Positions 882 to 62,487 of a stretch of DNA of 63,679 nt are shown here, in pieces; positions within the stretch are counted from its first letter, which is position 1; the number at the start of each line of letters is the position of its first letter. The notes beneath the pieces were generated by a model that saw only the letters and a program-made list of their open reading frames with translations, did not search any database and had not been told where the DNA came from. Source of the stretch: Actinobacteria bacterium 69-20. GTDB lineage: Bacteria; Actinomycetota; Actinomycetes; Mycobacteriales; Nakamurellaceae. The translations under genes were made by a program, and so were the position numbers. Where the stretch lies: the NCBI GenBank assembly GCA_001897425.1, contig MKSW01000023.1, positions 1 through 63,679 of the forward strand, written 5' to 3'.

Positions 882-1075
882 CCGCCCCGCCTCCTCCCGC
901 TCGCCGGGGAGGTGAGCGACAGCCCGCCGGAGGCGGCTGGACCTCGATCTGCAAGAGGCGTGGTAGCTCAAACGAGGGCTGAACAGAGGGAGCCCGGCAG
1001 CCGGTTCGCCGTGCCCATTCCAGACGTGCCCGGTCGTCACGGCCGAAGCGTCGCGGCTGCGGGCAGATGAGGCTC

Positions 1076-1091
1076 GTGCACCTGGCAGGTG
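1076..1091 (+). promoter_or_regulatory. ICE repeated motif, copy 1 (before methyltransferase)
   Basis: GTGCACCTGGCAGGTG, 65 nt before the methyltransferase start. Unlike the other copies it contains its own short inverted repeat, CACCT-GGC-AGGTG. Confidence 0.55.
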
Positions 1092-1155
1092 ACCAGCCCG
1101 GCCAGGAATCTCAACGAGAACTCCGGCCGGGGATCACCGATCCGCCGGAGCCCTC

Positions 1156-2265
1156 ATGCCCGATCCGACCGACGCGAGCACCGGCCGTCGCCTCCGGGTC
1201 GGGTCGCTGTTCTCGGGCTACGGCGGACTCGATCTGGCCGTCGAGGAAGTATTCGACGCTCGCACAATCTGGTTCTCTGAGATCAACGAGCCCGTCGCCC
1301 GCGTCTTCGCCCATCACTGGCCCGTCGCCCCCAACCTCGGTGACATCACCGGCATCGACTGGAACACCGTCGAGCCAGTGGACATCCTCTGCGGCGGCTT
1401 CCCCTGCCAGGACGTCTCCACTGTGGGCAAGCGAGCCGGCCTCGCACCCGGCACCCGATCCGGGCTCTGGTCCTACATGGTGACCGCAATCGAGACGCTG
1501 CAACCCGAGTACGTGGTGATCGAGAACGTTCGCGGACTGCTGTCCGCACCCGCCCGGCGCACTACCTCGGAAAGAGATGACGATGAGCGACGCAACCCCG
1601 ATCCCGCGACCCCCGGCGGTGCAACCCTTCGCAACCTGGAACCCGACCCGTGGGGTCTGGGAGACCAGCCAGCCCGACCTCTACGGGCACTTGGCGCCGT
1701 ACTCGGAGACCTGGCCGACCTCCGGTACAACGCGAGATGGATCGGCCTACCCGCTTCCGCCATCGGTGCGCCGCATCAGCGATTCCGCATCTTCATCCTC
1801 GCCCACCACGCTGTTCCGAACCCCGCTCGCATCCGACGCGGCGCGGGGCGGCGAAACACTGGACCAGGTGAAGGCCCGGCGCGGCACGATCGCGCTGAGT
1901 CATCAAGTGATCGACCTCGTGACGCGACGCGCGCGCACGTCGCCGGAAGCGACGCTCGCACTGATCGAGGAGTTCTTCGACGCTGGGGACGCTACGCCCT
2001 CGCCATCGTCAGATGGGAACACATCACCGGACGACCCGCCCCGGCTCCCGCGATCTTGAATGACGCCGCCGGACCACGCCCTGCGCCGGTCTTCGTGGAA
2101 TGGCTCATGGGCCTGCCCGCCGGATGGCTCACCGATCCGATTCTTGGGCTCACTCAGACCCAGCAGCTCACGGCGCTTGGCAACGGAGTTGTGCCAGCCC
2201 AGGCAACGTCCGCACTCACGAACCTGGTCGGAACAGATGCCCTCCGAGTGAGCCACACGCTCTGA
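1156..2265 (+). CDS. DNA (cytosine-5) methyltransferase
   Basis: A 369-residue C5-cytosine methyltransferase, most likely protecting the incoming element from host restriction. Visible motifs are the SAM-binding FSGYGG near 19-24, the catalytic GGFPCQDVS with Cys near 84, ENVRG near 123-127, a conserved ASAIGAPHQRFRIFILA block near 197-213 and ALGNGVVPAQ near 346-355. This is close to full family length. ATG at 1156 starts just before the first motif. The gene points away from the truncated relaxase and follows a copy of the element's repeated motif. Unusually, codons for about residues 141-301 also carry a second protein-like frame, shifted by +1, on the same strand (1577-2059). No restriction enzyme is seen nearby, so this looks like an orphan methylase. 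Confidence 0.9.
   Translation: MPDPTDASTGRRLRVGSLFSGYGGLDLAVEEVFDARTIWFSEINEPVARVFAHHWPVAPNLGDITGIDWNTVEPVDILCGGFPCQDVSTVGKRAGLAPGTRSGLWSYMVTAIETLQPEYVVIENVRGLLSAPARRTTSERDDDERRNPDPATPGGATLRNLEPDPWGLGDQPARPLRALGAVLGDLADLRYNARWIGLPASAIGAPHQRFRIFILAHHAVPNPARIRRGAGRRNTGPGEGPARHDRAESSSDRPRDATRAHVAGSDARTDRGVLRRWGRYALAIVRWEHITGRPAPAPAILNDAAGPRPAPVFVEWLMGLPAGWLTDPILGLTQTQQLTALGNGVVPAQATSALTNLVGTDALRVSHTL
1577..2059 (+). CDS. Overlapping +1-frame ORF inside the methyltransferase gene
   Basis: A 160-codon open frame lies wholly inside the methyltransferase gene. It starts at ATG 1577, preceded by GGAAAGAG. The translation does not look like random high-GC shadow. It has blocks such as SETWPTSGTTRDGSAYPLPP and LFRTPLASDAARGG, of the kind seen in or next to phage and mobile-element cytosine methyltransferases, where P-T-P-x-A-x-D type repeats are common. 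The methyltransferase frame across the same DNA still carries its own conserved block, so both frames may be under selection. It could be a real overlapping gene, or an old C-terminal methylase region now read in another frame. Function unknown. Confidence 0.4.
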   Translation: MTMSDATPIPRPPAVQPFATWNPTRGVWETSQPDLYGHLAPYSETWPTSGTTRDGSAYPLPPSVRRISDSASSSSPTTLFRTPLASDAARGGETLDQVKARRGTIALSHQVIDLVTRRARTSPEATLALIEEFFDAGDATPSPSSDGNTSPDDPPRLPRS

Positions 2266-2462
2266 GTCGCGACGGCGATATGCCCCGGCGCAAGGCTCTG
2301 GCCTCGCGAATGCGAGCAGCCTGCTCGCATTCGGCCCCAGCGAGAGGTTCGGCCGTCAGCCGATGCACGCCCACCGACATGAAACCCGTCACGGCTGGTG
2401 TCGAACCCCTCCTTACGAGGCCTCGGAGCCAGGCCCTGCTTGACTCCTCTCAATCCGTGTGT

Positions 2463-2490
2463 AACCCTATAGGGGTTAGGCATGGGGTTA
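2463..2490 (+). promoter_or_regulatory. Likely operator before the RHH/Clp-N gene
   Basis: The near-palindrome AACCCTATAGGGGTT (2463-2477) is followed by a second GGGGTTA (2484-2490), giving two direct repeats 12 bp apart just before the ribosome site GAGAGGA (2492-2498). A TTGACT box lies at 2440-2445. The layout fits autoregulation by the ribbon-helix-helix N-terminus encoded next to it; that link is inference. Confidence 0.5.
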
Positions 2491-2504
2491 TAGAGAGGAT
2501 CGAG

Positions 2505-3254
2505 ATGCCAAAGATCAACGTCTACCTTCCCGACGCACTCGCGTCGGCAGTCAAAGACGCCAACGTGCCAGTGTCCGCGGTGTGCCAGGCGGCGCTCGCC
2601 GAGGCGGTGGAGCGCATCGGACGAACCCGGAAGGGCATCACGGCGCTGCGAGACCCGGCGACTCCCGCCGCCATCCTCGGACGGATCGGGGAGGGTGTCC
2701 GCAAGCGGATGACCCCGCGACTCCTCGCCGCGCTCAGAGTCGCGGGCTTGGATGCAGAGGGTCAGGCCGGCGCCGCAGTGTCGTCGCTCGACCTCCTACG
2801 CGGCCTGCTCGACGATGGTGAGAACTTCGCGGTGCGTCTGCTGACTTCTCAGGGCGTTGACGTCGATGCGCTTGCGGAGGCGGCCGGAGCAAGCCGGACG
2901 GACGAACCTGGTGCTCCCGACGTCGAGTCCTCTGACGCCTTCCTTGGGCGGCTCACGATGCCTGGACGGCTCGCGTGCGCTGCCGCACTGGAAACAGTCG
3001 CCGAGCTCGGTCACAACTATGTCGGGTGCGAACACCTCCTCGTCGGACTTGTCGCGAGCGAAGGGCAGGCCCACGACATCTTGGCCGAATACGGCGTCCA
3101 AGCGGCGGCACTGCGTCAAGGCATTAGTGCTGCTGCCGCGGGAGTCATGCTGGAGCGAAGCCGATCAGCCGACCGGAGTGACGCCACGATTGCCGATCTC
3201 ACTCGCCGACTTGAAGCCATCGAGCGCCGACTTGCCGGAGCGTCTGGCGAATGA
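2505..3254 (+). CDS. Ribbon-helix-helix-like N-terminus joined to a Clp-N-type domain
   Basis: The 249-residue protein begins MPKINVYLPDALASAVK, a short strand plus two helices typical of ribbon-helix-helix DNA-binding proteins. After a variable middle part, residues about 145-215 (GRLACAAALETVAELGHNYVGCEHLLVGLV onward) look like the N-terminal repeat of Clp ATPases that binds substrates or adaptors. There is no ATPase module. Start ATG 2505 has ribosome site GAGAGGA and follows a palindromic operator-like repeat. The combination suggests a regulator whose stability or activity is tied to Clp proteolysis, but this is inference. Position among the antirestriction and control genes of the ICE agrees with a regulatory job. 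Confidence 0.65.
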   Translation: MPKINVYLPDALASAVKDANVPVSAVCQAALAEAVERIGRTRKGITALRDPATPAAILGRIGEGVRKRMTPRLLAALRVAGLDAEGQAGAAVSSLDLLRGLLDDGENFAVRLLTSQGVDVDALAEAAGASRTDEPGAPDVESSDAFLGRLTMPGRLACAAALETVAELGHNYVGCEHLLVGLVASEGQAHDILAEYGVQAAALRQGISAAAAGVMLERSRSADRSDATIADLTRRLEAIERRLAGASGE

Positions 3255-3359
3255 TCTTCGTGGTCTTCGGACTTGGACTGCCGTCTACGGGCCTCTTGCT
3301 GTGGTGCGTCCCTGCTTGCGCGGACCGTGCAGTCACGGGTCAGCGGCCCTGACAAGACA

Positions 3360-3399
3360 GCGGCACCAGGATGTCGTCCACAGATTCTCCTGGTGCCGC
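3360..3399 (+). promoter_or_regulatory. 11-bp inverted repeat enclosing the AraC-type start codon
   Basis: GCGGCACCAGG (3360-3370) pairs perfectly with CCTGGTGCCGC (3389-3399). The 18-nt loop holds the ATG at 3371. In RNA this would fold the translation start into a hairpin; it may also end transcription from the gene before. Confidence 0.5.
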
Positions 3400-4309: not shown

Positions 4310-4476
4310 TCCGGGTGATTCCCGCATCCTTGCCCGCGATATCCGCAGGATCGCCGCCGCTCGCCCGACTCCGGGCTGTTGGGCTGGTAGTCCGGTAGAG
4401 ACACGTCGGGTTCATCGGGGAGCCTGACGGTCGCAGCTCTCAGTCCGTCGTCCGTCTCGTCCCACCGATCCTCCCG

Positions 4477-4492
4477 GCGCACCTCATGGTCG
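4477..4492 (+). promoter_or_regulatory. ICE repeated motif, weak copy (before ardC)
   Basis: GCGCACCTCATGGTCG, 48 nt before the ArdC start. It shares GCGCACCT and the following G-G with copies at 9815 and 12526, but departs from the consensus after CACCT. Confidence 0.3.
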
Positions 4493-4540
4493 CAAGGGCC
4501 ACCGGCAGATGCCGTTGGCCCCGCCGGGAGGAGGTCAGCG

Positions 4541-5635
4541 ATGGCGACGGACGAGGAGACGCGAGCGGCGCGGGACGCGAAGCTCGACGCCCTGCACGAT
4601 CGCCTGACCGGCGCGGTCGACCAGCTCGTCTCCGGGGAGGACTGGCGCCGCGCGCTGGAGTTCGCCGCCCGCTTCCGGTCACGCTCGTTCGGGAACACGC
4701 TGCTGATCTGGTCACAACACATCGAGGCGTTCGAGCAGGGACGCACGGCAGCGCCGGAGCCGACGTACGTCGCCGGGTACAAACAGTGGCAGACGCTGGG
4801 CCGTCAGGTCTCCAAGGGCCAGCCGGGTTACATGATCTTCGCGCCGGTCACCGGCCGGTTCGCCACCTCCACGCCGCAGGACACCGGCTCGTGGCGTCGG
4901 CTGGGCCAGTTTGAGAAGCCGAAGCCGGGCGAGGTTGTCCGCTCGCGGATGGTCGGCGCGAAGCCGGCTTATGTGTGGGACGTGTCGCAGACCAGTGGCG
5001 ATCCGATCCCCGAGCGCCCGCAGGTGGCGCCACTTGCCGGCCAGGCACCCGACGGGTTGTGGGACGGGCTCGTCGCCTTGATAGAAGCCGAGGGGTTCAC
5101 CGTCGAGCGTGTCCCGGACGCGGACGCGATCAGGGGCGCGGACGGCCTGACCGCCTACCAGGCTCGGACGGTCTCGGTGCGCGACGACCTCACCCCGGCG
5201 GAGCAGGCAGCGACGCTGGTGCACGAGCTCGCTCACGTGAAGATGCACGGACCCGACAACGAGGAGGCCTCCCGGCACCGCGGCATCCGTGAGGTCGAGG
5301 CCGAGTCAGTGGCCATGATGATCGCCGCCGCGCACGGCATGGAAGCACTCGCGCCATCCGCGCTGTACGTCTCGGGCTGGGCATCCTCAGTCAAAGGCAA
5401 GAGCCCGGTCGAGGTGGTGCAGGAGACGGGTGAGCGCGTCCGCAAGATCGCCGGCAGCATCCTCGACGCCCTACCCACAGTGCAGATCGGCTCCGGCGAC
5501 CCGCCGGGTCTGACCCGCGACCGCCCCGGCCCCGCGCGGCCAGACAGAACACCGACGACAGCACCCGAGGTGACCGAACCACGACGGGAACTCGCGTCGG
5601 CGGTGCCGGCGGTGTCGACGGCGAGAGGGTTGTGA
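4541..5635 (+). CDS. ardC: ArdC-like antirestriction protein with zinc metallopeptidase domain
   Basis: A 364-residue protein of the ArdC type, which binds single-stranded DNA and helps plasmids and ICEs escape restriction when they enter a new host. Residues about 10-105 form the N-terminal DNA-binding region (FRSRSFGNTLLIWSQ, then GYKQWQTLGRQV). Residues about 170-290 hold an ImmA/IrrE-like metallopeptidase with LVHELAHVKMH near 227-236 and a downstream EVEAES glutamate near 251-256. The C-terminal about 50 residues are low-complexity. The stop overlaps the next start (TGATG), so it is translated together with the primase-like gene. Together with the orphan methylase it forms a host-defence-evasion module. 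Confidence 0.8.
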   Translation: MATDEETRAARDAKLDALHDRLTGAVDQLVSGEDWRRALEFAARFRSRSFGNTLLIWSQHIEAFEQGRTAAPEPTYVAGYKQWQTLGRQVSKGQPGYMIFAPVTGRFATSTPQDTGSWRRLGQFEKPKPGEVVRSRMVGAKPAYVWDVSQTSGDPIPERPQVAPLAGQAPDGLWDGLVALIEAEGFTVERVPDADAIRGADGLTAYQARTVSVRDDLTPAEQAATLVHELAHVKMHGPDNEEASRHRGIREVEAESVAMMIAAAHGMEALAPSALYVSGWASSVKGKSPVEVVQETGERVRKIAGSILDALPTVQIGSGDPPGLTRDRPGPARPDRTPTTAPEVTEPRRELASAVPAVSTARGL

Positions 5636-6555: not shown

Positions 6556-7313
6556 TGCCGGGCGGGACTGGTCGGCGGTGGGCGGTGGTAACCGCGGTCG
6601 CGGGGACGGTGTTCATCGCGGCGGGCGCGTTCTGGCTCAGCTTCACCTCCCTGGCCGATCTGGCCCGCCGCTCGGGCATCGACACCGGCGAGGCGTGGGC
6701 CTGGCCGTTGATCGTGGACGGGATCATCGTGGTCGCCACGGTCGCAGTCGTCGCGCTGGGCGGGACACGGGCGGCCTGGTATCCGTGGGCGCTGCTGATC
6801 GGCGGCGCGCTGGTCTCGGTGACCGCCAACGCACTGCACGCTGTGGTCGCGGCGGACGCGACCGTGCCCGGCGGGCTGGCCGCCTGTGTGGCCGCGGTGC
6901 CGCCGATCGTGCTGCTGGCGATCACGCACCTGACCGTCGTACTGACCCGGACCTCGACCGTCGAGAGTCCCGGCCCCGAGCCGGCGGACCTGCCGGTCAC
7001 CGCGACGGCGAACGTCGTCCCGACTGCTGGTGGGGTGGCCGGACACGTGCTGTCCGAACCCGAGCTGTCCGGACCCGAGTGGGACGAGCCGGTGGCCGGT
7101 GTCGCCTCGGTGCTGGACCGTCGCGGGCGTGCGGTGGAGCTGCGTGGGCTGGGGTGGTCGAACAAGAAGATCGCCCGCGAGGTCGAGGTGCACCCCAGCA
7201 CGGTCGGGCGGTGGTTCGCCGACGCGCATCTATCTGATGCCACCGAACTATCCAGTGGGCCGGGACTGTCGAGCGTCCCGGAGTTGTCGAGCGCAGAGGA
7301 GACCACGCCATGA
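6555..7313 (+). CDS. DUF2637 spread-like membrane protein with C-terminal helix-turn-helix
   Basis: A 252-residue protein. The first about 130 residues have four predicted membrane helices (VVTAVAGTVFIAAGAFWLSF, WPLIVDGIIVVATVAVVALG, YPWALLIGGALVSVTANALH, ACVAAVPPIVLLAITHLTVV) in the pattern of DUF2637, common in actinomycete conjugative elements and linked with intramycelial spread. After a proline-rich linker, residues about 185-225 (VELRGLGWSNKKIAREVEVHPSTVGRWF) look like a resolvase/GcrA-type helix-turn-helix. The start overlaps the primase-like stop in the same GTGATG arrangement seen at the gene before. The next gene starts within its last codons. Confidence 0.75.
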   Translation: MPGGTGRRWAVVTAVAGTVFIAAGAFWLSFTSLADLARRSGIDTGEAWAWPLIVDGIIVVATVAVVALGGTRAAWYPWALLIGGALVSVTANALHAVVAADATVPGGLAACVAAVPPIVLLAITHLTVVLTRTSTVESPGPEPADLPVTATANVVPTAGGVAGHVLSEPELSGPEWDEPVAGVASVLDRRGRAVELRGLGWSNKKIAREVEVHPSTVGRWFADAHLSDATELSSGPGLSSVPELSSAEETTP

Positions 7314-7720: not shown

Positions 7721-7780
7721 GGGGCGGTGATGGTCGATGGGTCGGCCGGGCATCGGGTGCAACGGCGCGAGGGACGCCGG

Positions 7781-7796
7781 GTGCACCTGCCTGCCA
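7781..7796 (+). promoter_or_regulatory. ICE repeated motif, copy 2
   Basis: GTGCACCTGCCTGCCA, ending 15 nt before ATG 7812. GCACCT (7783-7788) can pair with AGGTGC (7799-7804), the ribosome site of the gene, to form a hairpin hiding it. Confidence 0.65.
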
Positions 7797-7811
7797 GGAG
7801 GTGCCCACACC

Positions 7812-8759
7812 ATGACCGACAACAACCCGCCAACCCACGACTTCCGCTCGCCCCGGACAGCGGCCGGGGCGGAGGACTACCAGACCGGCGAGGGACTGCG
7901 GTCGCTGTTGCGCAGGCTACGTCGTCAGGGGCCGGGTGCGTGGGAGCACGATCCGGTCGCGGCGGAGCTGATGGAGTTCGCGGCCCAGAAGTATGCGGAG
8001 CTGGCGCGCAAACACGGCTTGGACCCGTGGGAGGCCGCGTCGGCGGCGTTCGACGTGATGCGCACCAAGGCCGCGCGGAACGCGGACGATCCGTGGGCGG
8101 TCATCACCCACGCGGTGCGGATCACCTGCATCGCCGAGGAACGCGCCCAAGGGCTGCTCTGCTCGGTGCATCAGGCCCGCCGCCCGCACATCTTCGCGTT
8201 CCACGACCCGGAGCGGTTCAGCGACCGGGACAACCCGCTCGCCGACTACCACCCAGCTCTGCAGGTCGCGGGCCTCGACCTCACTGACCTCATCGACCTT
8301 GACCTCATCGACGGCCCTGCTGAGGACGCCGAGAACCCCGGGGACATGGAGGATGACGCGGCCGAGGACGAGGCCGAGGAGGCCCGGATGGTCGCGGCAG
8401 CGATGGTCGAGGATGCCGCACGGTTCCTGATCCGTCGCGGATGGCCGCCGGACACGGCACGAGTCGGGGTCGAGCGTGTGTGCACGGCGTTGACGAAGGC
8501 CGGTAGTCGGCAGGGTGCGTTCGAGTCACTACGCCGCGACCGGCACGCTCGTGCCCTGCTTGATGTCCCCGGCCGGTCGTGGTCGGTGCTGCTGCGGACC
8601 CTGCTCGGGAACCCGCACCCTGCTTACGCCACAACCAACCTGGGCCGGGGTGTGCTGCTGCGGCTCTCGATCGGCGAGACCTTGCCGATGCTGCTGCGCG
8701 ACGACGATCTGACGCTCGCGGTGTCCCTGGCCGCTCCGCCACGGAGGGGTCGGCCATGA
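7812..8759 (+). CDS. Conserved ICE hypothetical protein, sigma-factor-like helices
   Basis: A 315-residue acidic protein. It starts at ATG 7812 after the strong ribosome site AGGAGGTG, not at the upstream in-frame GTG. The segment near 60-105 (DPWEAASAAFDVMRTKAARNADDPWAVITHAVRITCIAEE) is reminiscent of helices in sigma-factor region 2, but no full sigma domain is present. A run of Asp/Glu lies near 155-195. Its stop overlaps the start of the parB-like gene (ATGA), so the two are translated together. Function unknown; association with the ParB-like partner suggests maintenance or control. Confidence 0.65.
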   Translation: MTDNNPPTHDFRSPRTAAGAEDYQTGEGLRSLLRRLRRQGPGAWEHDPVAAELMEFAAQKYAELARKHGLDPWEAASAAFDVMRTKAARNADDPWAVITHAVRITCIAEERAQGLLCSVHQARRPHIFAFHDPERFSDRDNPLADYHPALQVAGLDLTDLIDLDLIDGPAEDAENPGDMEDDAAEDEAEEARMVAAAMVEDAARFLIRRGWPPDTARVGVERVCTALTKAGSRQGAFESLRRDRHARALLDVPGRSWSVLLRTLLGNPHPAYATTNLGRGVLLRLSIGETLPMLLRDDDLTLAVSLAAPPRRGRP

Positions 8760-9787
8760 GCACCCTGGCCGGGCACATCGAACTGGAACGGGCCGTGGAC
8801 TCGATCATCGTCGGACGGCGGCACCGCACCGACCTGGGCGACCTCGACGCCCTGACCACCTCTATCGAGCGTGAGGGCTTGCTACAGCCGGTTACGGTCA
8901 CCCCGGATGGGGTGCTGGTGTGCGGGCGGCGACGGCTCGCCGCGATCAAGCGACTCGGCTGGCGCACCGTCAACGTGTGGGTCCGCTCCGGGATATCGGA
9001 CCGGCTCGGGCAGCTCATGGCCGAACAAGACGACAACATGCTCCACAAGCCACTGACCCAACTCGAAGCCGCCGGCCTGTACCGGGAATTGAAGATGGTG
9101 ATGGCCGAGGACGCGGCCCGCCGCGACGCCGCCACCCGGTTCAGCGCCGAGAATCAGCCCGGAGCTGACGGGGGTGCCAATTTGGCACCCCCGTCCCTCG
9201 GGCCGCTGGGCAAGTCACGCGAGCAAGCCGCCCGCATGGTCACCGGCCGCTCCTCCTACACCACGCTGGAAAAGATTGGCTTCCTCCAACAGGTCGCCGA
9301 CGACCCGACGCAACCCGAGCAGGTCCGCCAGTACGTGACTGCCGAGCTGGAACGGATCGACGCCGGTGCACCCGTCCACCCAATTTACGAATCGGCCCGC
9401 GACACGATCCGGGCCGTCAACCCCGAGTGCGATGCCGACCTGGATGCCCTTGCCCAGCAAGCCCTCGCTCACGCCAAGGACGCCGCCACCACCAAGCGCC
9501 GCACCCGCCAACGGACCACGCGCACCGCTGAGGACGGCGGCGTGATCGTGCGATACCCGGTGCGAGCATTCGTCGTGACCTGGGGCGAACTGGCCGAGTG
9601 GTGGCTGCACTACGACATCGACGAACTCGCCACCGCCCTCACCGCTGAGCAGGTCGAGTCGTTCCTGCACACCGCGCAGGGCACCAGCACCTTCGCCGAC
9701 CACCTCTGTGCCGCCCGCGCCGCCACCGGGACTGACGCGGGCTCTGTGGAGGTGGCGTCGGCGCGAGGCCACCTGCGCGCCCTCTAA
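8756..9787 (+). CDS. ParB-like nuclease/partition protein
   Basis: A 343-residue protein. Residues about 8-95 are a ParB/Srx-type domain (VDSIIVGRRHRTDLGDLDALTTSIEREGLLQPVTVTPDGVLVCGRRRLAAIKRLGW). The GRRRLAA segment is the GxRR motif that in ParB proteins binds CTP. Residues about 145-185 resemble the helix-turn-helix that recognises a centromere site (REQAARMVTGRSSYTTLEKIGFLQQVADDP). The linker between these parts is encoded by a perfect 29-bp palindrome (9167-9195). ATG 8756 has ribosome site GGAGG. No ParA partner is visible in the window. Likely roles are element stability or gene control. Confidence 0.75.
   Translation: MSTLAGHIELERAVDSIIVGRRHRTDLGDLDALTTSIEREGLLQPVTVTPDGVLVCGRRRLAAIKRLGWRTVNVWVRSGISDRLGQLMAEQDDNMLHKPLTQLEAAGLYRELKMVMAEDAARRDAATRFSAENQPGADGGANLAPPSLGPLGKSREQAARMVTGRSSYTTLEKIGFLQQVADDPTQPEQVRQYVTAELERIDAGAPVHPIYESARDTIRAVNPECDADLDALAQQALAHAKDAATTKRRTRQRTTRTAEDGGVIVRYPVRAFVVTWGELAEWWLHYDIDELATALTAEQVESFLHTAQGTSTFADHLCAARAATGTDAGSVEVASARGHLRAL
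9167..9195. repeat. Perfect 29-bp palindrome inside the parB-like gene
   Basis: GACGGGGGTGCCAA (9167-9180) and TTGGCACCCCCGTC (9182-9195) are exact reverse complements around a single central T. It encodes the linker NLAPP between the two domains of the ParB-like protein. It could be the protein's own binding site. Confidence 0.8.
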
Positions 9788-9814
9788 CACCCAAACTCCC
9801 CGGTGGTCGTGCTG

Positions 9815-9830
9815 CGCACCTACCGGGCAT
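9815..9830 (+). promoter_or_regulatory. ICE repeated motif, copy 3
   Basis: GCGCACCTACCGGGCA runs directly into the start codon ATG 9829. There is no normal ribosome site here, so the motif itself occupies the translation start region. Confidence 0.5.
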
Positions 9831-10518
9831 GAGAACTCCCCGCATTCCCGCGCCCGCCACACGAGGCCGACTCGTCGCCCTCATCATCGCCGGCGTTCTG
9901 GCGTTGGCGACCATCGGTGTCGGTGTCTACGGCCTGGTCCGCGGCCCTGGCCACGCGGCGAGTACGCCGGGTGCCGGGTCACCGGCCGACGGCACCGGGA
10001 CCGGACCCGGCCCGGCGAATCCGTCCAGCACGGTGGGTCCGGCGACCCTGCCGCAAACCGACGACCCGATCGCGTACGCGAAGGCGGTCGCGTCGGCGTT
10101 GTTCGATTGGGACACCACCTCCGGCTACACCCCCTCGGACTACGAGGCCCCGGTGCTCGCGGACGCCGACCCGTCCGGGGAGGAGACCTCCGGGCTGATC
10201 GGGGATGTCGCCAGCTACGAACCCACCACCGAGCAGTGGACCCAGCTCGCCACGATGGACGTGGCCCAGCACCTGACGATCAGCAGCGCCGCCGTCCCCT
10301 CGACCTGGCCCGAAGCACTGGCCCAGGCGCACGGACAACTCCGGCCGGGCACGACCGCGGTCACGATCACCGGCACCCGGCACCGCACCGGCATCTGGTA
10401 CGGCGACAAAGCCGCCACGAGCGAGCCGGTGTCGTTCACCGTATTCGAGGCGTGCACCCCCGCGTGGCCCCGCTGTCACACGCTGCGGCTGTCCGAACTC
10501 AACAACCCGCTCAAGTGA
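9829..10518 (+). CDS. Membrane-anchored conjugation protein (VirB8/TcpC-like candidate)
   Basis: A 229-residue protein with one N-terminal membrane helix (VALIIAGVLALATIGVGVYGLV near 16-37), a Gly/Pro/Thr-rich linker and a C-terminal extracytoplasmic domain of about 160 residues. That topology and the place just before the cell-wall hydrolase fit a VirB8/TcpC-type pore protein, but I see no diagnostic motif. The C-terminal domain has two cysteines close together (EACTPAWPRC). The start is fixed by a motif copy ending in its ATG. The next gene starts 21 bp after the stop. Confidence 0.6.
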   Translation: MRTPRIPAPATRGRLVALIIAGVLALATIGVGVYGLVRGPGHAASTPGAGSPADGTGTGPGPANPSSTVGPATLPQTDDPIAYAKAVASALFDWDTTSGYTPSDYEAPVLADADPSGEETSGLIGDVASYEPTTEQWTQLATMDVAQHLTISSAAVPSTWPEALAQAHGQLRPGTTAVTITGTRHRTGIWYGDKAATSEPVSFTVFEACTPAWPRCHTLRLSELNNPLK

Positions 10519-10539
10519 CCCTGGGGCGGGTGAATAGCG

Positions 10540-11718: not shown

Positions 11719-11793
11719 GGTAGCCGGCCGCGGATCGGCCGCACGCACAGACGTCCGAGGGCGCCGATCTGGTGGGGCTGACAGACTCATCCG

Positions 11794-12375: not shown

Positions 12376-12525
12376 CCCCGGCCCCCTGGAGCCCGTCGCT
12401 ATCGGACCGGCATGCGTTGGACCGAGGTTCACCCCTCCCGCTCTACGAGCCAGGGTCGAGTCCGCGAAATCACCACCGCTTGCACCTCGGGTGACACGGC
12501 GCCCCCGCGCGGGTGGCGGGGTTCG

Positions 12526-12541
12526 GCGCACCTGAGGGTCG
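12526..12541 (+). promoter_or_regulatory. ICE repeated motif, copy 4
   Basis: GCGCACCTGAGGGTCG touches the GTG start at 12541. GAGGG within the motif also serves as the ribosome site. Confidence 0.45.
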
Positions 12542-12855
12542 TGATCACCTCGACTGCACTTCACTCGCTGACTACCGCTTTCGTCACTGCGGATGTGTAC
12601 CCGAACCTCAACGGTGTCGGCGGCGCCGGCCAGCTCAAGACCGTGATCGGCGCACTGATGACGATCGTGCTCATCGTCGCCGTGCTGATGATGATCGTGT
12701 GCGCCGCGACCTGGGCCGTGGCGTCCTCGCACGGCAGCTACAGCGCGGCCATCAAAGCCCGCACCGGTCTGTTGGTCGCGGTCGGTGCCGCCGCCCTGGA
12801 CGGGGCCGCGATCGCCTGGCTGAACTTCCTGCTCGGCATCGGCCCGACTCTCTAA
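12541..12855 (+). CDS. Small VirB2/TrbC-like membrane protein (DUF6112 type), copy A
   Basis: A 104-residue protein with two membrane helices (TVIGALMTIVLIVAVLMMIVCAATW near 36-60; ARTGLLVAVGAAALDGAAIAWLNFLL near 74-99). It precedes a close relative with the same DVYPN/DVNINPN...G-I/L-K-T-V/I-G pattern (13014-13358). The order pilin, pilin, VirB6, VirB4 fits a role as pilus or pore subunit. GTG 12541 is chosen because GAGGG and the motif copy directly precede it and because the relative starts at a comparable point. Confidence 0.65.
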   Translation: MITSTALHSLTTAFVTADVYPNLNGVGGAGQLKTVIGALMTIVLIVAVLMMIVCAATWAVASSHGSYSAAIKARTGLLVAVGAAALDGAAIAWLNFLLGIGPTL

Positions 12856-12924
12856 CCCGGCCCTGACACGGCTCTGACTCGACTGCCCCGGGGCGCCTCA
12901 CCTGGCGCAGCTCGGGCATCGCTG

Positions 12925-12940
12925 GTGCACCTGCCAGACG
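12925..12940 (+). promoter_or_regulatory. ICE repeated motif, copy 5
   Basis: GTGCACCTGCCAGACG, 73 nt before ATG 13014. GTGCACCT can pair with AGGAGCGC (13001-13008) at the ribosome site, with one wobble and one mismatch. Confidence 0.6.
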
Positions 12941-13013
12941 AATCCCGCCATCACCGTCCGCTCATTGGCGGCGCGGGTGTGTGGGTCCGTCCACTCTGCG
13001 AGGAGCGCCACCG

Positions 13014-13358: not shown

Positions 13359-13373
13359 GCGGGGCTGCTCGCG

Positions 13374-14873
13374 ATGGGTGTCTGCGATGTCCCCGTTATC
13401 TCCACTGTCTGCCACGTTGCCGGCAAGGCCGCCGGAACGATCATCTCCGCGCCGTTCGACTGGATCGCCCAGGGCGTCGGCAACGCCGCGGAGTGGATGT
13501 TCAAAGGCGTCTGGCAAATCTTCGATTCGACCACGTTGGTCGATGTCACCAGCTCCAACTACGTGAAGGTCTACGACGTTCTGTTCGGCGTCGCGATCTT
13601 CTTGATGTTGCTGTTCTTCCTGCTCCAACTCATCACCGGCCTGATACGTCGCGATCCCGGCGCGCTGCATAGAGCCGGGATCGGGCTGGCGAAATCGGTG
13701 CTCGGCTCGTTCGTCGTCATCACCCTGACCGGGCTGGCGTTGACGATCGTGGACGAGCTGTGCGTCGGGATCATCCAGGCCACCGGCACCACCCTGGACG
13801 AGATGGGCGGCAAGATCGCCGCCTTGGCCGCCGGCCTGGTGGGGATCACGCTGTCCGCGCCGGGCGCGGGCGCGGTCATCATCATCTTCCTCGGCTGCCT
13901 GGCCATCACCGGCGCCGCCGTCGTGTGGTTCAGCTTGTTGATCCGCAAGGCGCTGCTGCTCGTGGCGATCGTCCTGGCGCCTATTGCCTTGTCGGGGCAG
14001 TCGTGGGACCACGCCCGCGGCTGGTTCTCCAAGTGGGCCTCGTTCGTGGTCGCGTTGATCGTCTCCAAGTTCGTCGTGGTCGTGATCTTCCTGGTCGCGA
14101 TCAACCAGATGAACGCCCCGCTGAATCTGGACCTGTCCTCGATCTCCAACCCGGTCGCCGGGATCGTGCTCATGTTCGTGGCGGCGTTCGCGCCCTACAT
14201 GGCCTACCGATTCATCAGCTTCGTCGGCTTCGACCTCTACCACGCCATGAGCGCGGAGTCCGAGGCCAAGGGCGCGATGAACCGGCCCATCCCGGTCCCC
14301 GTGACGCCCAGCCTGTCCGGCGCCCGCAAGGTTCTCGGCGGCGGCTCCGACAGCAGCGGCGGCGGTGCGGGAGACGGCACCGGTGGTGGTGGTGCGCCGA
14401 AGCCTGGTGGAAGTCCCCTTGGCGGGGGCGGGGAGACCGGAGCTGGCACCGGTGCAGGCGCGGGTACGAGTGCTGCGTCCGGGGCCGGGGCTGGGGAGGC
14501 GGCCGGTGCCGCGGGCGGCCCGGTCGGGCTGGCCGCGGTCGCGGGCGCCCAAGCCATTACCGCCGCGGCGAAAGCAGGCCCGGCGACCGGGCACGCCGTC
14601 GCGGACACTGCGGTGGCCCACGCCGATGCCGGACAACAGGCCTCCGGCCAGGGCTCGCAGGGCTCATCGGGAACCGCGGGCGGTGGGCCGGGCGGGTCGA
14701 GTCGGCCGGGGTCGGTCCCGATCCCGCCCTCGTCCCCGACACCCGCCGCACCGGCACCAAGTGAGCAGCCGGCCCCGCCGCCCGCACCGGCGACGCCGCC
14801 TGCGACGCCGCCCGTTTCGCCGCCCGTTTCGCCGTCGCAGCCTGGGCGGTCCTCGTCTGAGGGAGACCTCTGA
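13374..14873 (+). CDS. VirB6/TrbL-like inner-membrane pore protein
   Basis: A 499-residue polytopic protein. Residues about 60-290 carry at least six membrane helices, including VLFGVAIFLMLLFFLLQLITGLI, GAGAVIIIFLGCLAITGAAVVWF and LIVSKFVVVVIFLVAI. The LLIRKALLLVAIVLAPIALSG segment is typical of TrbL/VirB6. The last about 190 residues are Gly-, Ala-, then Pro-rich and low in complexity, with a 15-bp tandem repeat near 14810-14835. It forms the central inner-membrane channel of the secretion system. The stop overlaps the next start (TGATG). The C-terminal tail is longer than in most family members. Confidence 0.85.
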   Translation: MGVCDVPVISTVCHVAGKAAGTIISAPFDWIAQGVGNAAEWMFKGVWQIFDSTTLVDVTSSNYVKVYDVLFGVAIFLMLLFFLLQLITGLIRRDPGALHRAGIGLAKSVLGSFVVITLTGLALTIVDELCVGIIQATGTTLDEMGGKIAALAAGLVGITLSAPGAGAVIIIFLGCLAITGAAVVWFSLLIRKALLLVAIVLAPIALSGQSWDHARGWFSKWASFVVALIVSKFVVVVIFLVAINQMNAPLNLDLSSISNPVAGIVLMFVAAFAPYMAYRFISFVGFDLYHAMSAESEAKGAMNRPIPVPVTPSLSGARKVLGGGSDSSGGGAGDGTGGGGAPKPGGSPLGGGGETGAGTGAGAGTSAASGAGAGEAAGAAGGPVGLAAVAGAQAITAAAKAGPATGHAVADTAVAHADAGQQASGQGSQGSSGTAGGGPGGSSRPGSVPIPPSSPTPAAPAPSEQPAPPPAPATPPATPPVSPPVSPSQPGRSSSEGDL

Positions 14874-16327
14874 TGGCCGGCGAGAACCCTGACCGGGGGC
14901 TGGCGCCGGTCAAGTTCTCCCGGCTGACCCGCCGCGGGCTGTTGCTGGGATTGTCGCTGTCGCAGGTGATCGTGCTCGGCCTCGGTGCCGCCGCCCTGGT
15001 CGGCGCGCTCTACACGGCCGGCGGCAAAGGCCTACTGCTGGCCGGGCCGGTGTGCGGCTTCTGCGCTCTGCTGGTCTGGGTCCCGATCGGCGGACGCAAG
15101 GCAATCGAGTGGGTACCCCTCGCGGGCCATTGGGCGCTCCGGTTCTTCTTGGGGCAGACGGTGTATCGGTGGCGGGTCACCAAGCCCCGCCCGGCCGGCA
15201 CCCTCGCGCTACCGGGTGATGCGGCGGCGCTGCGGCAGTACCTCGACCCGGACACCGGGGCGGTCATGGTCCACGACCCCCACCACAACACCTTGACCGC
15301 GCTGGTCGAGGTGACGCATCCGAGCTTCATCCTCTTGGACCCCGACGAGCAGCAACGCCGCGTCACCTCCTGGGGGCGAGTGCTGGCCACCGTGTGCCGC
15401 TCCGGGCGTATCGCCAGTCTGCAAATGCTCGAACGCACGGTGCCCGACTCCGGCACCGGGCTGGAACAGTGGTGGGCCGCCCACGGCACCGATGACGGCT
15501 CCCGGGTCGCCACGACCTACCGCGAGCTGATCGAGCGGGCCGGGCCGACCGCCGAACGCCACGTCACCACCCTGTCGTTGTCGTTGGACATGAAGGCCGC
15601 CGCGCGGGCGATCCGCTCGGCCGGGCACGGGATGCGTGGCACGGCCGCCGTGCTGCGGGCGGAGATGCGCACCCTGACCAGCGCCCTGCGCGCGGCGGAC
15701 CTGACGCCGAGCGACTGGTACACCCCGGGCCAGCTCGCGGTCATGCTGCGCGCGGCCTACGACCCCGCCATCGCGGCGACGTTGGAGCGCAGCGAGTTGG
15801 GCCGCGACCTGGCCACCGCCGGCCCGGTCGCGGTCGAGGAGACCTGGGACCGGCTGCGGTCGGACTCCGCGTTCCACGCGGTGCTGTGGGTCAGTGAATG
15901 GCCGCGCTCGCAGGTGTATCCGGGCTTCCTCGCTCCGATTCTGCTGTCGTCTGGGATGCGGCGGGCGTTCACGCTGCTCTACGACCCGGTACGCGCCGAC
16001 CAAGCCGCCCGCGACATCAGGCGAAAGAAGACCGGCTACCTCTCCGACGCCGCCCAACGCGCCAAGGTCGGGCAGATCGAGGACGCCGAGCAAACCGCGG
16101 AGTACCGCGACGTGCTCCAACAAGAAGCCGACCTCATCGCCGGCCACGGCGTGCTGCACTACGCTGGCCTGATCGCCGTCTCCGCACCCACCATCGACGA
16201 GTTGGAGGCCGCGGTCTCCGCGATCGAGCAAGCGGCCATCCAAGCCTCCTGCGAAACCCGAAGGTTGGTCGGGCAACAGGCCCAAGCCTTCACCGCCGCA
16301 GCACTCCCACTCGGACGCGGCCTCTAA
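14873..16327 (+). CDS. SCO6880-family conjugation-associated membrane protein
   Basis: A 484-residue protein with two N-terminal membrane helices (LLGLSLSQVIVLGLGAAALVGALY; GLLLAGPVCGFCALLVWVPIG), then a large cytoplasmic part. This part begins with a basic motif (FFLGQTVYRWRVTKPRPAGTLALPG). The architecture matches the SCO6880 family that always precedes VirB4-like ATPases in actinobacterial elements. It combines PrgI-like anchors with the N-terminal, non-ATPase half of VirB4, so the following gene may supply the matching ATPase half. It overlaps the VirB6 stop by one base. Confidence 0.8.
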   Translation: MAGENPDRGLAPVKFSRLTRRGLLLGLSLSQVIVLGLGAAALVGALYTAGGKGLLLAGPVCGFCALLVWVPIGGRKAIEWVPLAGHWALRFFLGQTVYRWRVTKPRPAGTLALPGDAAALRQYLDPDTGAVMVHDPHHNTLTALVEVTHPSFILLDPDEQQRRVTSWGRVLATVCRSGRIASLQMLERTVPDSGTGLEQWWAAHGTDDGSRVATTYRELIERAGPTAERHVTTLSLSLDMKAAARAIRSAGHGMRGTAAVLRAEMRTLTSALRAADLTPSDWYTPGQLAVMLRAAYDPAIAATLERSELGRDLATAGPVAVEETWDRLRSDSAFHAVLWVSEWPRSQVYPGFLAPILLSSGMRRAFTLLYDPVRADQAARDIRRKKTGYLSDAAQRAKVGQIEDAEQTAEYRDVLQQEADLIAGHGVLHYAGLIAVSAPTIDELEAAVSAIEQAAIQASCETRRLVGQQAQAFTAAALPLGRGL

Positions 16328-16357
16328 CCAGCACACCGGCAGCGGTTGGCAGCGGTC

Positions 16358-16373
16358 GTGCACCTGCCCGGCA
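16358..16373 (+). promoter_or_regulatory. ICE repeated motif, copy 6
   Basis: GTGCACCTGCCCGGCA, the copy closest to the consensus, 47 nt before ATG 16421. GCACCT (16360-16365) is complementary to AGGTGC (16406-16411) in the ribosome site of virB4. Confidence 0.7.
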
Positions 16374-16420
16374 GATCACCACTCCGCCACGGAGTCTGTC
16401 GAGGAAGGTGCCGGCCGCTG

Positions 16421-17944: not shown

Positions 17945-18513
17945 TGCGGCCCCGATCCCGCGCCGACCGGACCGCCGCCCATGACACCACCAGCGCCACC
18001 GACACCACCAGCGGTCACGAGGCGGTGCAGGTGCCGGTAGTGCTGCCGCACCTGGTGTTCGTCGTACACCAGGACGAGACCGTGACCGTCACCATCGACG
18101 GCACACCGTTCGAGCCCGAGCCGTTCGCGCCGCCGTGGCAGCGCGGCTCCTTCGCCGGCATCATCGACACCCTGACCGACCAACGGCGCACCCCGATCCG
18201 GGTCGAGGTCCGCGAGGTCGACGGGACGGTCTTCACCGACATCATCACCCCGGCCCGGCACCGCGCCACACCCCCTGACCCCACGCCGTCGGCCGGGTCG
18301 GAGCCGGCGCTGCGGCTGGTCGCCCTGCACGGGGACGGCTACGTGGCCGGGGAAGACGTGGCCGTCGCGGTCATCGTCGCCCACAGCGAAGCCAGCCCGG
18401 ACGGGACCGCCCGCGGCCTGCTCACCCCCGGCGAACTCGCCCACGCCCCGACCGGGGAGGTCGCCCTGATCGGCCGCATTTCCCAGACGGTCACCATCGG
18501 CCACCCCGAATAG
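17944..18513 (+). CDS. ICE hypothetical protein
   Basis: A 189-residue protein whose ATG shares a base with the VirB4 stop (TGATG), so it is in the same operon. The N-terminus is Thr/Ser/Asp-rich. The middle reads HLVFVVHQDETVTVTIDGTPFEPEPFAPPWQRGSFAGIIDTLTDQRRTPIRVEVREVDGTVFTDII, a beta-rich domain with no name I can give. The C-terminal half again alternates strands (ALRLVALHGDGYVAGEDVAVAVIVAHSE). Probably cytoplasmic because no signal or membrane helix is visible. Function unknown. Confidence 0.65.
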   Translation: MRPRSRADRTAAHDTTSATDTTSGHEAVQVPVVLPHLVFVVHQDETVTVTIDGTPFEPEPFAPPWQRGSFAGIIDTLTDQRRTPIRVEVREVDGTVFTDIITPARHRATPPDPTPSAGSEPALRLVALHGDGYVAGEDVAVAVIVAHSEASPDGTARGLLTPGELAHAPTGEVALIGRISQTVTIGHPE

Positions 18514-18574
18514 CCCGGCCCGAACCAGCGGCCCGAATGACCGGCACCGGGTGGGGCGGACCGATGGGTGGTGG

Positions 18575-18590
18575 GTGCACCTGACTGGCG
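18575..18590 (+). promoter_or_regulatory. ICE repeated motif, copy 7
   Basis: GTGCACCTGACTGGCG, 39 nt before ATG 18630. GCACCT (18577-18582) is exactly complementary to AGGTGC (18618-18623), which contains the ribosome site. Confidence 0.65.
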
Positions 18591-18629
18591 ACCATCTATC
18601 GCTGCCGTCCCGGAACGAGGTGCCCGGCC

Positions 18630-19112
18630 ATGCCGACCTTCCACGACCCGACCCACGACGCCGCCGAAGCGTCCGAGGCGCTGCGGGGTCTGGCGCACGC
18701 CACCCGCACCCTCGATGATCCTGCCGACACCTACGCGGTGATCGGCAGCCTGCTCGCCGGGACACGATCGCTGCGTCAGGTCATCGACCAGCTCGCCACC
18801 GCCCACCTGAACCACCTGCGGCTGGCCCACGACGATGCCGGCGACCACACCGCCGGCATCGTCGCCGCCGACTCGGCCGCGGACGAGCTGCACCGGGCCG
18901 GCACCCTCCTGGACGCCGTAGTGGCACGGCTGGATGCCGCGTTCCAACACACCGGGCGGATCGCCTGGTATCCCGACCCCGCACCCGAACACAACGCGCC
19001 GTCGCCGGCCCGACCACCTCAGTCGCGCTCGGGCCGGGACGGTTTCGGTGATCCGTTCACCCCCAGTGGTTCCCGTGCCGACCGCGGCCAGGGGCGCCCA
19101 CTGTCGATGTGA
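18630..19112 (+). CDS. ICE hypothetical helical protein
   Basis: A 160-residue soluble protein, mainly alpha-helical over its first 115 residues (EASEALRGLAHATRTLDDPADTYAVIGSLLAGTRSLRQVIDQLATAHLNHLRLAHDD), with a Pro/Arg/Ser-rich tail. No recognised domain. The helical pattern of regularly spaced leucines suggests a small coiled-coil or bundle. It has its own motif copy and ribosome site GAGGTG, so it may be expressed separately from VirB4. Confidence 0.65.
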   Translation: MPTFHDPTHDAAEASEALRGLAHATRTLDDPADTYAVIGSLLAGTRSLRQVIDQLATAHLNHLRLAHDDAGDHTAGIVAADSAADELHRAGTLLDAVVARLDAAFQHTGRIAWYPDPAPEHNAPSPARPPQSRSGRDGFGDPFTPSGSRADRGQGRPLSM

Positions 19113-19159
19113 CCCACTGAGATCGCTGAGAGCAACTGCCGGCCCGTGGGTGCCCGGTC

Positions 19160-19175
19160 GAGCACCTGTCCGGCA
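19160..19175 (+). promoter_or_regulatory. ICE repeated motif, copy 8
   Basis: GAGCACCTGTCCGGCA, running into ATG 19175 without a separate ribosome site, as at 9829. Confidence 0.5.
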
Positions 19176-20116
19176 TGGACAACGACAACCACGCGGAACC
19201 CGCCACACCCACGCCCGCGCCAACGACGGCGACGACGGCGCGGATGGTCGGGCCGTTGACCGTGACACTCTGGCCCGACGAGTCGTTGGGCGAGCACCAG
19301 CGGTACGCCTACCGCATCACCGAGGGTGCCACCGGGCAGACTGTCGAGGGCCGGGACCTGTTCACCGGTGCCGGTCAGCCGGTCGACCCGGACCGCGCGC
19401 TGCGGGACCTGGCCGGCTACCTGTCCGCCGCGGGCGAGTCCCGCCAGTACGCCCTCGACCACCCCGGCGATACCGCGGAGCACGAGGGCCTGTTCCCGGA
19501 CTGGCTGGTCGAGGCCGCGCGTCTCAACCTTGACGCCCTCGCCCTGCTCGCCGAAGACCCGTCAACCGAACCGGACCGGCCAGCCGAGCTGACGGCATCC
19601 GATGAGCCGGGGCCGGCGCCCCGGCGGTGGATCAGCGTGGTGTTCCTGCAAGGCGCCGAGGCCGACGAGGCGCTGGACCTGATCGACCGGGCCGGCACCG
19701 ACGCCGCGATCGAGTACCTGGCCGGCTACGACTTCGGCGACGAGACCGTCGATGCCGCGTTGGAGAACGGCTATGTCTACGACACGGTGCCCAACGGGAC
19801 GATGGATCGGGTCGCGACCCGCGATGTCTACACCCTGACCTACAACCACTCCGTCGGTCACGTCGGACTCGTGCGCGAGTACGACGCACTGCCGGACCCG
19901 GCGCTGCTCGGCATCGACACCCCCATACCCGCCCAGCCACCACAGCCGGCGTCAGCAGCACCGGCAACACAGCCGGCACCGATGTCCGAGACGCCGACTC
20001 CGCACACCCCGGGCACTCCGAGCGCCGCGTTGGCGGATGGTGGGCGGGACTGGTTCGCCCCGCCGCCCGGCTCCGCGGGCACCAGCCAGGCTCCGGGTCG
20101 CGGACCGTCCCTGTGA
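19175..20116 (+). CDS. ICE hypothetical protein before the coupling protein
   Basis: A 313-residue acidic protein in two parts. Residues about 25-130 resemble a small alpha/beta domain (MVGPLTVTLWPDESLGEHQRYAYRITEGATGQTVEGRDL). Residues about 150-240 carry WISVVFLQGAEADEALDLIDRAGTDAAIEYLAGYDFGDET. The last 60 residues are proline-rich. The stop overlaps the start of the coupling protein gene (GTGA). Translation-coupled position suggests it works with the coupling protein, perhaps as an accessory or substrate-selecting factor; no named family recognised. Confidence 0.65.
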   Translation: MDNDNHAEPATPTPAPTTATTARMVGPLTVTLWPDESLGEHQRYAYRITEGATGQTVEGRDLFTGAGQPVDPDRALRDLAGYLSAAGESRQYALDHPGDTAEHEGLFPDWLVEAARLNLDALALLAEDPSTEPDRPAELTASDEPGPAPRRWISVVFLQGAEADEALDLIDRAGTDAAIEYLAGYDFGDETVDAALENGYVYDTVPNGTMDRVATRDVYTLTYNHSVGHVGLVREYDALPDPALLGIDTPIPAQPPQPASAAPATQPAPMSETPTPHTPGTPSAALADGGRDWFAPPPGSAGTSQAPGRGPSL

Positions 20117-21891: not shown

Positions 21892-21925
21892 GCCCGGCTG
21901 CGAGGGCTCCGGCGGGGTGCCTTGG

Positions 21926-21941
21926 GTGCACCTGCCTGCCA
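21926..21941 (+). promoter_or_regulatory. ICE repeated motif, copy 9
   Basis: GTGCACCTGCCTGCCA, 60 nt before ATG 22002. GTGCACCT can pair with AGGAGCAC (21990-21997) in the ribosome site with a single mismatch. Confidence 0.65.
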
Positions 21942-22001
21942 CAAGCGCGGCCGAGTCGGTGAACCGCTGGGCCGCAGGACAACACGGACAGGAGCACGAC
22001 G

Positions 22002-22463
22002 ATGACGATCGACACCCAGGCGGCCATCTCCGGGTTCATCGCGACCGAGCCCCGCCTCACCTACACCGAGGACGGGGTGCCGCGGTTCTACGCCCGGATC
22101 GGGATCGAGCATTCGCGGTTGGAACAGGACGGGTCGTTCACCCAGCTCGAACCGACCTTCCACGACATGACCATGTTCCGCCGGGCGGCCGAGGAGTCGG
22201 TCGGCCGGTTCCACAAGGGCGACAAGTTCGTGGCCGCCGGCCGCGTCCACGAGTACGCCTACAACAAGGACGGCCAGACCATCCAGACCGAGGAGTTCAT
22301 CGCCAGCCGGATCGGTCACGACACCGCCCGCACCCGCTACCAAGTCGATCGCACACCACGCCAGCAGACGATGGCTCGCCAGGCGCCCGCGCGTGATGCA
22401 ACGGCGCTCCAGCCCTCGGAGCGGTCGATGACCGCCCAGCCCGCTTCCGCCCTCGGCATGTGA
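22002..22463 (+). CDS. ssb: Single-stranded DNA-binding protein, element-borne
   Basis: A 153-residue OB-fold protein of the SSB family: AAISGFIATEPRLTYTEDGVPRFYARIGIEH, then FHDMTMFRRAAEESVGRFHKGDKFVAAGRVHEYAY. The FxxGDxxxxxGR pattern is typical of SSB. The C-terminus is a short flexible tail lacking the acidic DDDIPF-type end of housekeeping SSB. It would coat the strand arriving during conjugation. Start ATG 22002 follows ACAGGAGCACGACG. Confidence 0.85.
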   Translation: MTIDTQAAISGFIATEPRLTYTEDGVPRFYARIGIEHSRLEQDGSFTQLEPTFHDMTMFRRAAEESVGRFHKGDKFVAAGRVHEYAYNKDGQTIQTEEFIASRIGHDTARTRYQVDRTPRQQTMARQAPARDATALQPSERSMTAQPASALGM

Positions 22464-24706: not shown

Positions 24707-24714
24707 AAATGCGT

Positions 24715-62310: not shown

Positions 62311-62487
62311 GACGGCCGGCCCCCTTCCGTATGTGGCACCTTCCGCCTTCAGCGTGACGACCCACGACAGATGCGGAACCGGCGCCGGCCGTTCCATGCT
62401 GACTGACCCCGCAGGCGGATCGTCTACAGAGCACCTTCGCCCTCACTAACCGTGGCGGTCGTCAGGATGCTGAGGCAGAATGCCGTG

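Follow-up and report, generated by a model that had tools for sequence, protein, structure and literature searches.

Introduction

Phage T4 has late genes whose ribosome site is closed by a hairpin with the late promoter inside its 5′ arm, such that run-through RNA is locked while RNA begun at the late promoter is open, and a phage-encoded sigma factor reads these promoters (passages of PMC2988022 and PMC3014915). Mycobacteriophage stoperators are asymmetric sites present in many copies along the element, all recognised by a single regulator (PMC9283540), and in the ICEs (integrative and conjugative elements) of the SXT/R391 group a SetCD regulon has been described (PMC4344509). The element considered here is an ICE of 24.5 kb at the start of contig MKSW01000023.1 of Actinobacteria bacterium 69-20, the whole stretch analysed being 63,679 nucleotides long (hereafter the window), in which an earlier inspection of the letters alone, the sequence-only reading, had noticed a 16-bp motif repeated before about ten ICE genes. 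The motif is a real, conserved and oriented signal. It is likely to be a promoter, and is best read as a promoter that at many genes would also form one arm of a hairpin with the Shine-Dalgarno (SD) sequence of the gene behind it, and not as a plain operator.

To our knowledge, little is known about the control of ICEs of the type IV secretion system (T4SS) type in Actinobacteria. Where the survey PMC3218068 turns to regulation, the passages seen concern the actinomycete ICEs (AICEs) of Frankia. Among open-licence papers, judged by titles, the starts of abstracts and, in the case of PMC6868719 and PMC3218068, passages of the text, no description was found of the motif or of U7812, the ICE protein proposed below as its reader.

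The motif in the window

Recurrence of the motif before about ten ICE genes is borne out, and its length is 28 bp rather than 16, with the consensus kGRg-N5-kgGYGCACCTGnCTGnCRA. Positions are counted from the first G of the core, such that +15 is the base 15 bases after it, at which the start point of transcription is predicted. Exact GTGCACCTG occurs seven times in the window, six times forward, at the six positions that had been claimed as strong, and once in reverse (61450), against a mean of 0.65 and a maximum of 3 in the shuffled window; GTGCACCTGCCYGGCA with up to three mismatches gives 16 matches where 2.5 are expected. A profile of the relatives' motif was built on 253 distinct sites, to the counts of which neither the window nor L001, its nearest relative, contributed. 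It places all ten claimed sites at 11.7–24.3 bits, a test that is not wholly independent in that the 253 sites came from an iterated profile trained partly on window sites. At 12 bits or more, bases 1–24500 contain ten forward matches (nine claimed sites and one at 6924) and no reverse match, and the remaining 39 kb contains none on either strand; sub-threshold places elsewhere in the window, at 18046, 56245 and 61453, reach 10.1–11.5 bits. Nine of the ten claimed positions are correct and the tenth, given as 9815, should be 9814, while the claim that no copy precedes the CadD-like gene holds, since there is no site of 9 bits or more between 9814 and 12526.

All ten copies lie on the forward strand. 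The first (1065..1092, core 1076, 17.9 bits, predicted start point 1091) stands before the C5 methylase gene (1156–2265) and the second (4466..4493, core 4477, predicted start point 4492), with 11.7 bits the lowest of the ten, before the ArdC gene (4541–5635). The third (7770..7797, core 7781, 23.4 bits) precedes the gene for U7812, and an mRNA from its predicted start point at 7796 would begin with AGGAGGUG. Further copies precede the second DUF6112 pilin gene, whose start is taken as 13014 (12914..12941, core 12925, 24.3 bits, predicted start point 12940), virB4, with its start taken as 16421 (16347..16374, core 16358, 23.5 bits, predicted start point 16373), the unknown gene U18630 at 18630–19112 (18564..18591, core 18575, 22.9 bits, predicted start point 18590) and ssb at 22002–22463 (21915..21942, core 21926, 20.8 bits, predicted start point 21941). 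The copies with cores at 9814, 12526 and 19160 are leaderless and are described with the start point below. The additional match at 6924 (14.8 bits) lies inside the DUF2637-HTH gene; similar matches are found upstream of U7812 in loci L113 and L133 and within the DUF2637-HTH frame of L009, and perhaps reflect conserved coding sequence.

The motif in relatives

A VirB4 search of genome contigs gave at least 489 relatives, of which the best 80 loci (1.45 Mb) were analysed. Here GTGCACCTG occurs 73 times forward and 5 times in reverse. With the trained profile at 12 bits, the 80 loci and the window ICE give 314 forward and 12 reverse matches, with 12 and 23 in reversed-sequence controls, counts that are partly circular since this profile was fitted on the same loci. 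A forward site is present in 78 of the 80 loci at 11 bits and in 76 at 12 bits. Of the 314 forward sites, 263 lie outside the genes called by a crude finder, though 89% of the DNA is coding, and the median distance to the next start is 49 bases. The motif is neither absent from related elements nor as common in host DNA, the two outcomes that the sequence-only reading had named as refuting it.

To see which genes carry the signal, the 160 bases ahead of each ortholog with enough upstream DNA were scored for a site reaching 11 bits. Sites precede 32 of 37 U7812, 36 of 44 VirB8, 43 of 58 second pilin and 47 of 54 ssb orthologs, as well as U18630 (31/59), U17944 (25/51), U7310 (5/13) and U19175 (2/10). 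They are found before 11 of 59 first pilin, 9 of 78 VirB4, 4 of 44 ParB-like and 1 of 69 EccE-like orthologs, and before none of those of TraG (0/63), VirB6 (0/56), NlpC (0/42), DUF4913 (0/48), DUF2637-HTH (0/19), PrimPol (0/4), CadD (0/1), Xis (0/18) and Int (0/18). The sequence-only interpretation is supported in part. One control signal for the transfer module is upheld, as the motif recurs before U7812, VirB8, pilin 2, ssb and two unknown families. Orthologs of TraG, VirB6 and NlpC have none in this count, and the window copies before virB4 and the first pilin gene are atypical, since few orthologs carry sites there.

Twenty regions picked by U7812 rather than by VirB4 contain 39 forward and 4 reverse matches, with controls averaging 4.5; five have no site and three have one match each, of 12.6–14.2 bits, which could be chance. 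At least one of the twenty (L116) shares its location with L080, one of the VirB4 loci. ArdC, for which the 80 loci hold no ortholog with upstream DNA, is preceded by sites in six of these regions, in which one TraG site and a few PrimPol sites also occur. In L115 and L126, variant sites can be seen by eye in which ACCT is kept and the preceding bases are changed (e.g. GAACACCTG), with leaderless ATGs, also by eye, at +14 or +15.

Start point and leaderless genes

The evidence for a start point comes from the register of start codons. Profile positions 14–17 were blanked so that the start codon could not bias the choice of sites; the search is then a looser one (366 forward, 59 reverse matches) and gives 333 distinct sites. 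In 21 of these, an ATG that is followed by at least 80 open codons stands at +15. No site has such an ATG at +14 or from +16 to +20, and the offsets +9 to +13 have one to three each. When GTG is counted the starts at +15 rise to 27, comprising ten VirB8, seven U17944-type, three U19175 and seven other genes, some of which look accidental. In the window, the predicted start point falls on the ATG of the VirB8-like gene 9829–10518, at its A (9829; copy 9803..9830, core 9814, 17.8 bits), on a GTG of the first DUF6112 pilin gene, at its G (12541; 12515..12542, core 12526, 15.2 bits) and on the ATG of U19175, 19175–20116, at its A (19175; 19149..19176, core 19160, 13.5 bits). A leader is present in further orthologs of VirB8 (27 sites) and U17944 (13 sites), so that gain or loss of the leaderless arrangement has probably happened repeatedly.

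The same register is seen where a leader is present. At 163 leadered sites, chosen by the core and a G at −10, there is a purine at +15 in 158 and a pyrimidine at +14 in 143, a pyrimidine–purine step which looks like an initiator. Relative to a start so placed, the conserved blocks are kGRg at −26 to −23, GYGCACCTG at −15 to −7, with ACCT at −11 to −8, and CTGnCRA at −5 to +2. The 27 leaderless copies have G at −10 in 20 cases and at −10 or −9 in 26, for which base composition alone would give about 55%. These copies keep the motif with no leader SD for it to pair with, which argues for a promoter rather than an RNA element only. A promoter of the housekeeping type was rejected, since among 219 sites neither TANNNT nor TTGAC stands at a constant distance. 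Actinobacteria commonly have leaderless mRNAs; those of Mycobacterium tuberculosis are treated in PMC3898074.

A hairpin between motif and Shine-Dalgarno sequence

In read-through RNA the motif is complementary to the SD of the gene that follows, as in ssb of L001, where GUGC(A)CCUGUC pairs with GACAGG(A)GCAC. Some pairing of CCU with AGG is expected in any case, and for this reason null sets were used. The mean probability that the SD is paired with the motif is 0.515 at 143 sites, compared with 0.398 when leaders are swapped between clusters, 0.252 when the motif is shuffled and 0.186 in 627 other genes. A count of motif–SD pairs in a fixed register shows almost no excess (4.2 vs 4.03), and duplex tests in free register show excess pairing.

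Compensatory change was sought by comparing each motif paired with its own SD to mixed pairs within its gene cluster, under permutation. The own pair is stronger in four of six clusters: ssb (n = 24, 0 of 5000 permutations), pilin 2 (n = 26, P 0.001), the unknown MSVS/VSGS gene (n = 7, P 0.016) and VirB8 (n = 18, P 0.033). For the U18630 cluster (18, P 0.098) and U17944 (7, P 0.094) the excess is unclear; clusters were formed by single linkage, and this U18630 cluster mixes U7812, U18630 and U19175 genes. Shared ancestry can inflate such permutation tests, and segments upstream of the motif, which share that ancestry, show no own-pair effect in the same test. RNAalifold found nothing on the ssb leaders, because MAFFT had misaligned the 3′ arms.

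A transcript that begins at the predicted start would lack the 5′ arm. When the folded RNA begins at +15 instead of 0, the computed openness of the SD rises from 0.28 to 0.45 (174 sites), whereas the matching cut in 622 other genes changes it from 0.38 to 0.41; relative to RNA folded from 60 bases further upstream, an opening of more than 0.2 is seen in 40% of sites versus 21%. Within the window the probability of SD–motif pairing is 0.82 at 12925, 0.96 at 16358, 0.52 at 18575, 0.83 at 21926 and 0.0 at 1076, which has no lock hairpin. The computed lock effect is strong at 16358 and at 21926 (fold z −3.0, 0 of 200 shuffles), small at 12925, opposite at 18575 and absent at 1076 and 19160; at 7781, which has a hairpin GCACCU/AGGUGC (z −0.88), it depends on the length folded. 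A hairpin lock is likely at many of the sites, though not at every one.

U7812 as candidate reader

U7812 is a protein of 315 aa encoded at 7812–8759 on the forward strand. It has no family in the Pfam, NCBIfam, PHROGs and PDB sequences searched, no Sigma70 family is among the Pfam matches of 32 members at E up to 10, and hhalign against sigma70 gives a probability of 0.1, such that every sequence route tried to a sigma identity is negative. Its N-terminal domain has a predicted fold like sigma region 2. As for a region 4 helix-turn-helix, whole-chain structural matches have a large rmsd (root-mean-square deviation) and the best single-domain fit of the C-terminal domain is Nab2. In Foldseek against viral models no E falls below 0.4, with a phage sigma factor fifth at E 1.1. 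Homologs of U7812 occur in 44 of the 80 loci and in 27 of the 29 genomes whose loci do not show one. U7812 is plausibly the likeliest reader and a candidate sigma-like factor; for the sigma part taken by itself we would put the chances a little short of even.

Several further occurrences may be noted. In L123 (genome G237) a U7812 homolog has the motif before it and no ParB-like, VirB or pilin match within 14 kb, and is perhaps a stand-alone factor or part of a different kind of element. L134 (G028) has a distant homolog (E 2e-8) in a region with no matches to other ICE genes. Matches to U7812 number 7 in genome G410 and 5 in G432, fragments among them, and several such elements may share one host there.

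Proposed mechanism

The reading which we hold to be somewhat on the probable side joins a dedicated ICE promoter, a lock on the SD and U7812 as the factor. The motif would be the promoter of the transcription units of the transfer phase, with transcription starting 15 bases past the first G of GYGCACCT, at the pyrimidine–purine step, and yielding an mRNA that either has a short leader or, where +15 is itself the start codon, none. RNA polymerase would also read through the sites from upstream genes, as is expected since the genes are co-oriented and close together. In such run-through RNA the motif would, for many genes, act as 5′ arm and the gene's own SD as 3′ arm, turning translation off, whereas a transcript begun at the motif would lack the 5′ arm and be translatable; in leaderless genes the motif sits where the SD would be. 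The reader would be host RNA polymerase carrying U7812, taken as an ICE-encoded sigma-like protein that has diverged very far, and the motif before U7812's own gene would provide positive feedback. Transfer proteins would then be produced only on use of the motif, with U7812 as the likely switch. Computation shows the conserved and oriented motif, the register of start codons at +15 and, in several families, motif–SD complementarity with compensatory change; the start point itself, the lock in the cell and U7812 as reader are inferred.

More tentatively, and with a chance that we place somewhat below even, these ICEs may form a widespread actinobacterial family having its own sigma-like factor, missed by sequence searches, and a matching GC-rich promoter, promoter and factor co-changing across clades and most promoters doubling as an anti-SD arm or sitting on the start codon, in a phage-like late programme.

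Alternative readings

An element acting in RNA only, as a translational operator or thermosensor in long transcripts that is opened by protein, small RNA or heat, with no promoter involved, would account for the SD hairpin and its compensatory change. It does not explain why leaderless genes retain both the motif and a G at −10 or −9 with no SD leader to pair, and neither the pyrimidine–purine step at +14/+15 nor the G block belongs to the paired bases in the consensus hairpin of pilin 2. Moreover, Rfam covariance models at E up to 1 match only a tRNA in window bases 1–30000. We consider such an element unlikely.

Still less likely is an operator or stoperator, at which a ParB-like, DUF2637-HTH or excisionase-like HTH protein would bind the gap sites and repress initiation or stop elongation. 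The asymmetric site in many copies does resemble the stoperators of mycobacteriophages (PMC9283540). One orientation and a place in gaps are further likenesses. As for its binder, the ParB-like gene (8756–9787, forward strand; scanned as 8579–9787, with a ParB_N match at the cut-off score) overlaps that of U7812 and is a rival candidate regulator, present in 38 of the 38 relatives that show U7812. On the other side, the DUF2637-HTH gene is found in 29 of the 38, L123 combines U7812 and motif without a ParB-like match in 14 kb, and an operator gives no reason for start codons to stand at exactly +15 or for bases across the start step to be conserved. Of the binders that the sequence-only reading proposed, the ParB-like protein is the one found in all 38. 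AraC and RHH/Clp-N occur in 0 of 38, a weak negative, as the upstream DNA in view had a median length of just 1.7 kb; U7812, which that reading did not propose as a binder, is the better candidate.

A promoter served by a sigma factor of the host rather than of the ICE has in its favour the 16 Sigma70_r2 matches in the own genome. The same motif, however, serves elements in hosts of several actinobacterial orders (as presumed from the names in record titles), and a stricter pattern has only five of its nine matches in the own 4.48-Mb genome outside the 24.5-kb ICE, the other four lying inside it. Nor was a sigma54 found: the spacing of the motif fits, and rpoN (PF04552), present in 4 of 14 control genomes, was not detected in the own genome (G000, 98% complete). 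A host factor is very improbable. Chance or a codon-usage artefact might be suspected from the strict pattern, which at 0–8 matches per strand in 39 of 40 genomes (13 forward in the remaining one) is too noisy to tell carriers from non-carriers, but is refuted by the ten matches against none with the relatives' profile in the window and by the 73 against 5 of GTGCACCTG in relatives, and its probability is negligible.

Layout of the element

The contig begins at window base 1, within the ICE, such that the left end of the element is out of view, and a TrwC-type relaxase gene on the minus strand adjoins this base. The right end is taken to be the tyrosine integrase gene (23258–24493, forward strand), which adjoins a tRNA-Pro on the minus strand (24713–24787). 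Between them, the gene at 2505–3254 has a Clp N domain joined to a stretch that is weakly CcdA-like and finds no match in the 80 related loci, and a transfer gene at 14873–16327 has a weak, below-cut-off match to EccE of type VII secretion. In the host part of the window an IS110-type transposase is encoded at 61213–62397.

Comparison with known systems

Should the proposed mechanism be right, one readable signal would mark the transfer units of a large element family (78 of the 80 best loci among at least 489 VirB4 relatives), with start points predicted to the base. It would also name a master factor that has no annotation in the libraries searched, and add a sigma-like family invisible to profile searches.

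Stoperators stand in gaps in one orientation, as does the asymmetric ICE motif. They are repressor sites, unlike a promoter, and we know of no fixed distance to start codons or SD pairing in them. Sigma54 promoters have GG-N10-GC, and the ICE motif likewise has GG and GC 10 bp apart (profile positions −10/−9 and 2/3), about 12 bp before the predicted start; it differs in the additional conserved ACCTGnCTGnCR which runs down to the start. With extracytoplasmic function (ECF) sigma factors U7812 would share the region 2-like predicted N-terminal fold and a gene of its own under the motif, and differs in lacking profile similarity and in the closer upstream block of the ICE motif. As in SXT/R391, a single ICE-encoded activator system would control transfer. 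SetCD, however, is an FlhCD-like activator and not sigma-like, and we know of no hairpin lock in that system.

A further likeness is to the late genes of T4 (gene e, soc, 49 and I-TevI, with gp55 as late sigma factor), in which the same design of a promoter within a hairpin arm is found, computed here at many but not all sites. Taken together, the motif retained in the leaderless copies and the hairpin evidence match this design, with a start of transcripts past the 5′ arm predicted from the +15 register. The T4 late promoter is TATAAATA, a box not found at the ICE motif, whose invariant core is GC-rich with no TANNNT at a fixed place; the ICE promoter is 28 bp long, serves several transfer units and has a leaderless option. 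If the reading holds, the T4 device of hiding a ribosome site behind a late promoter would extend to conjugative elements.
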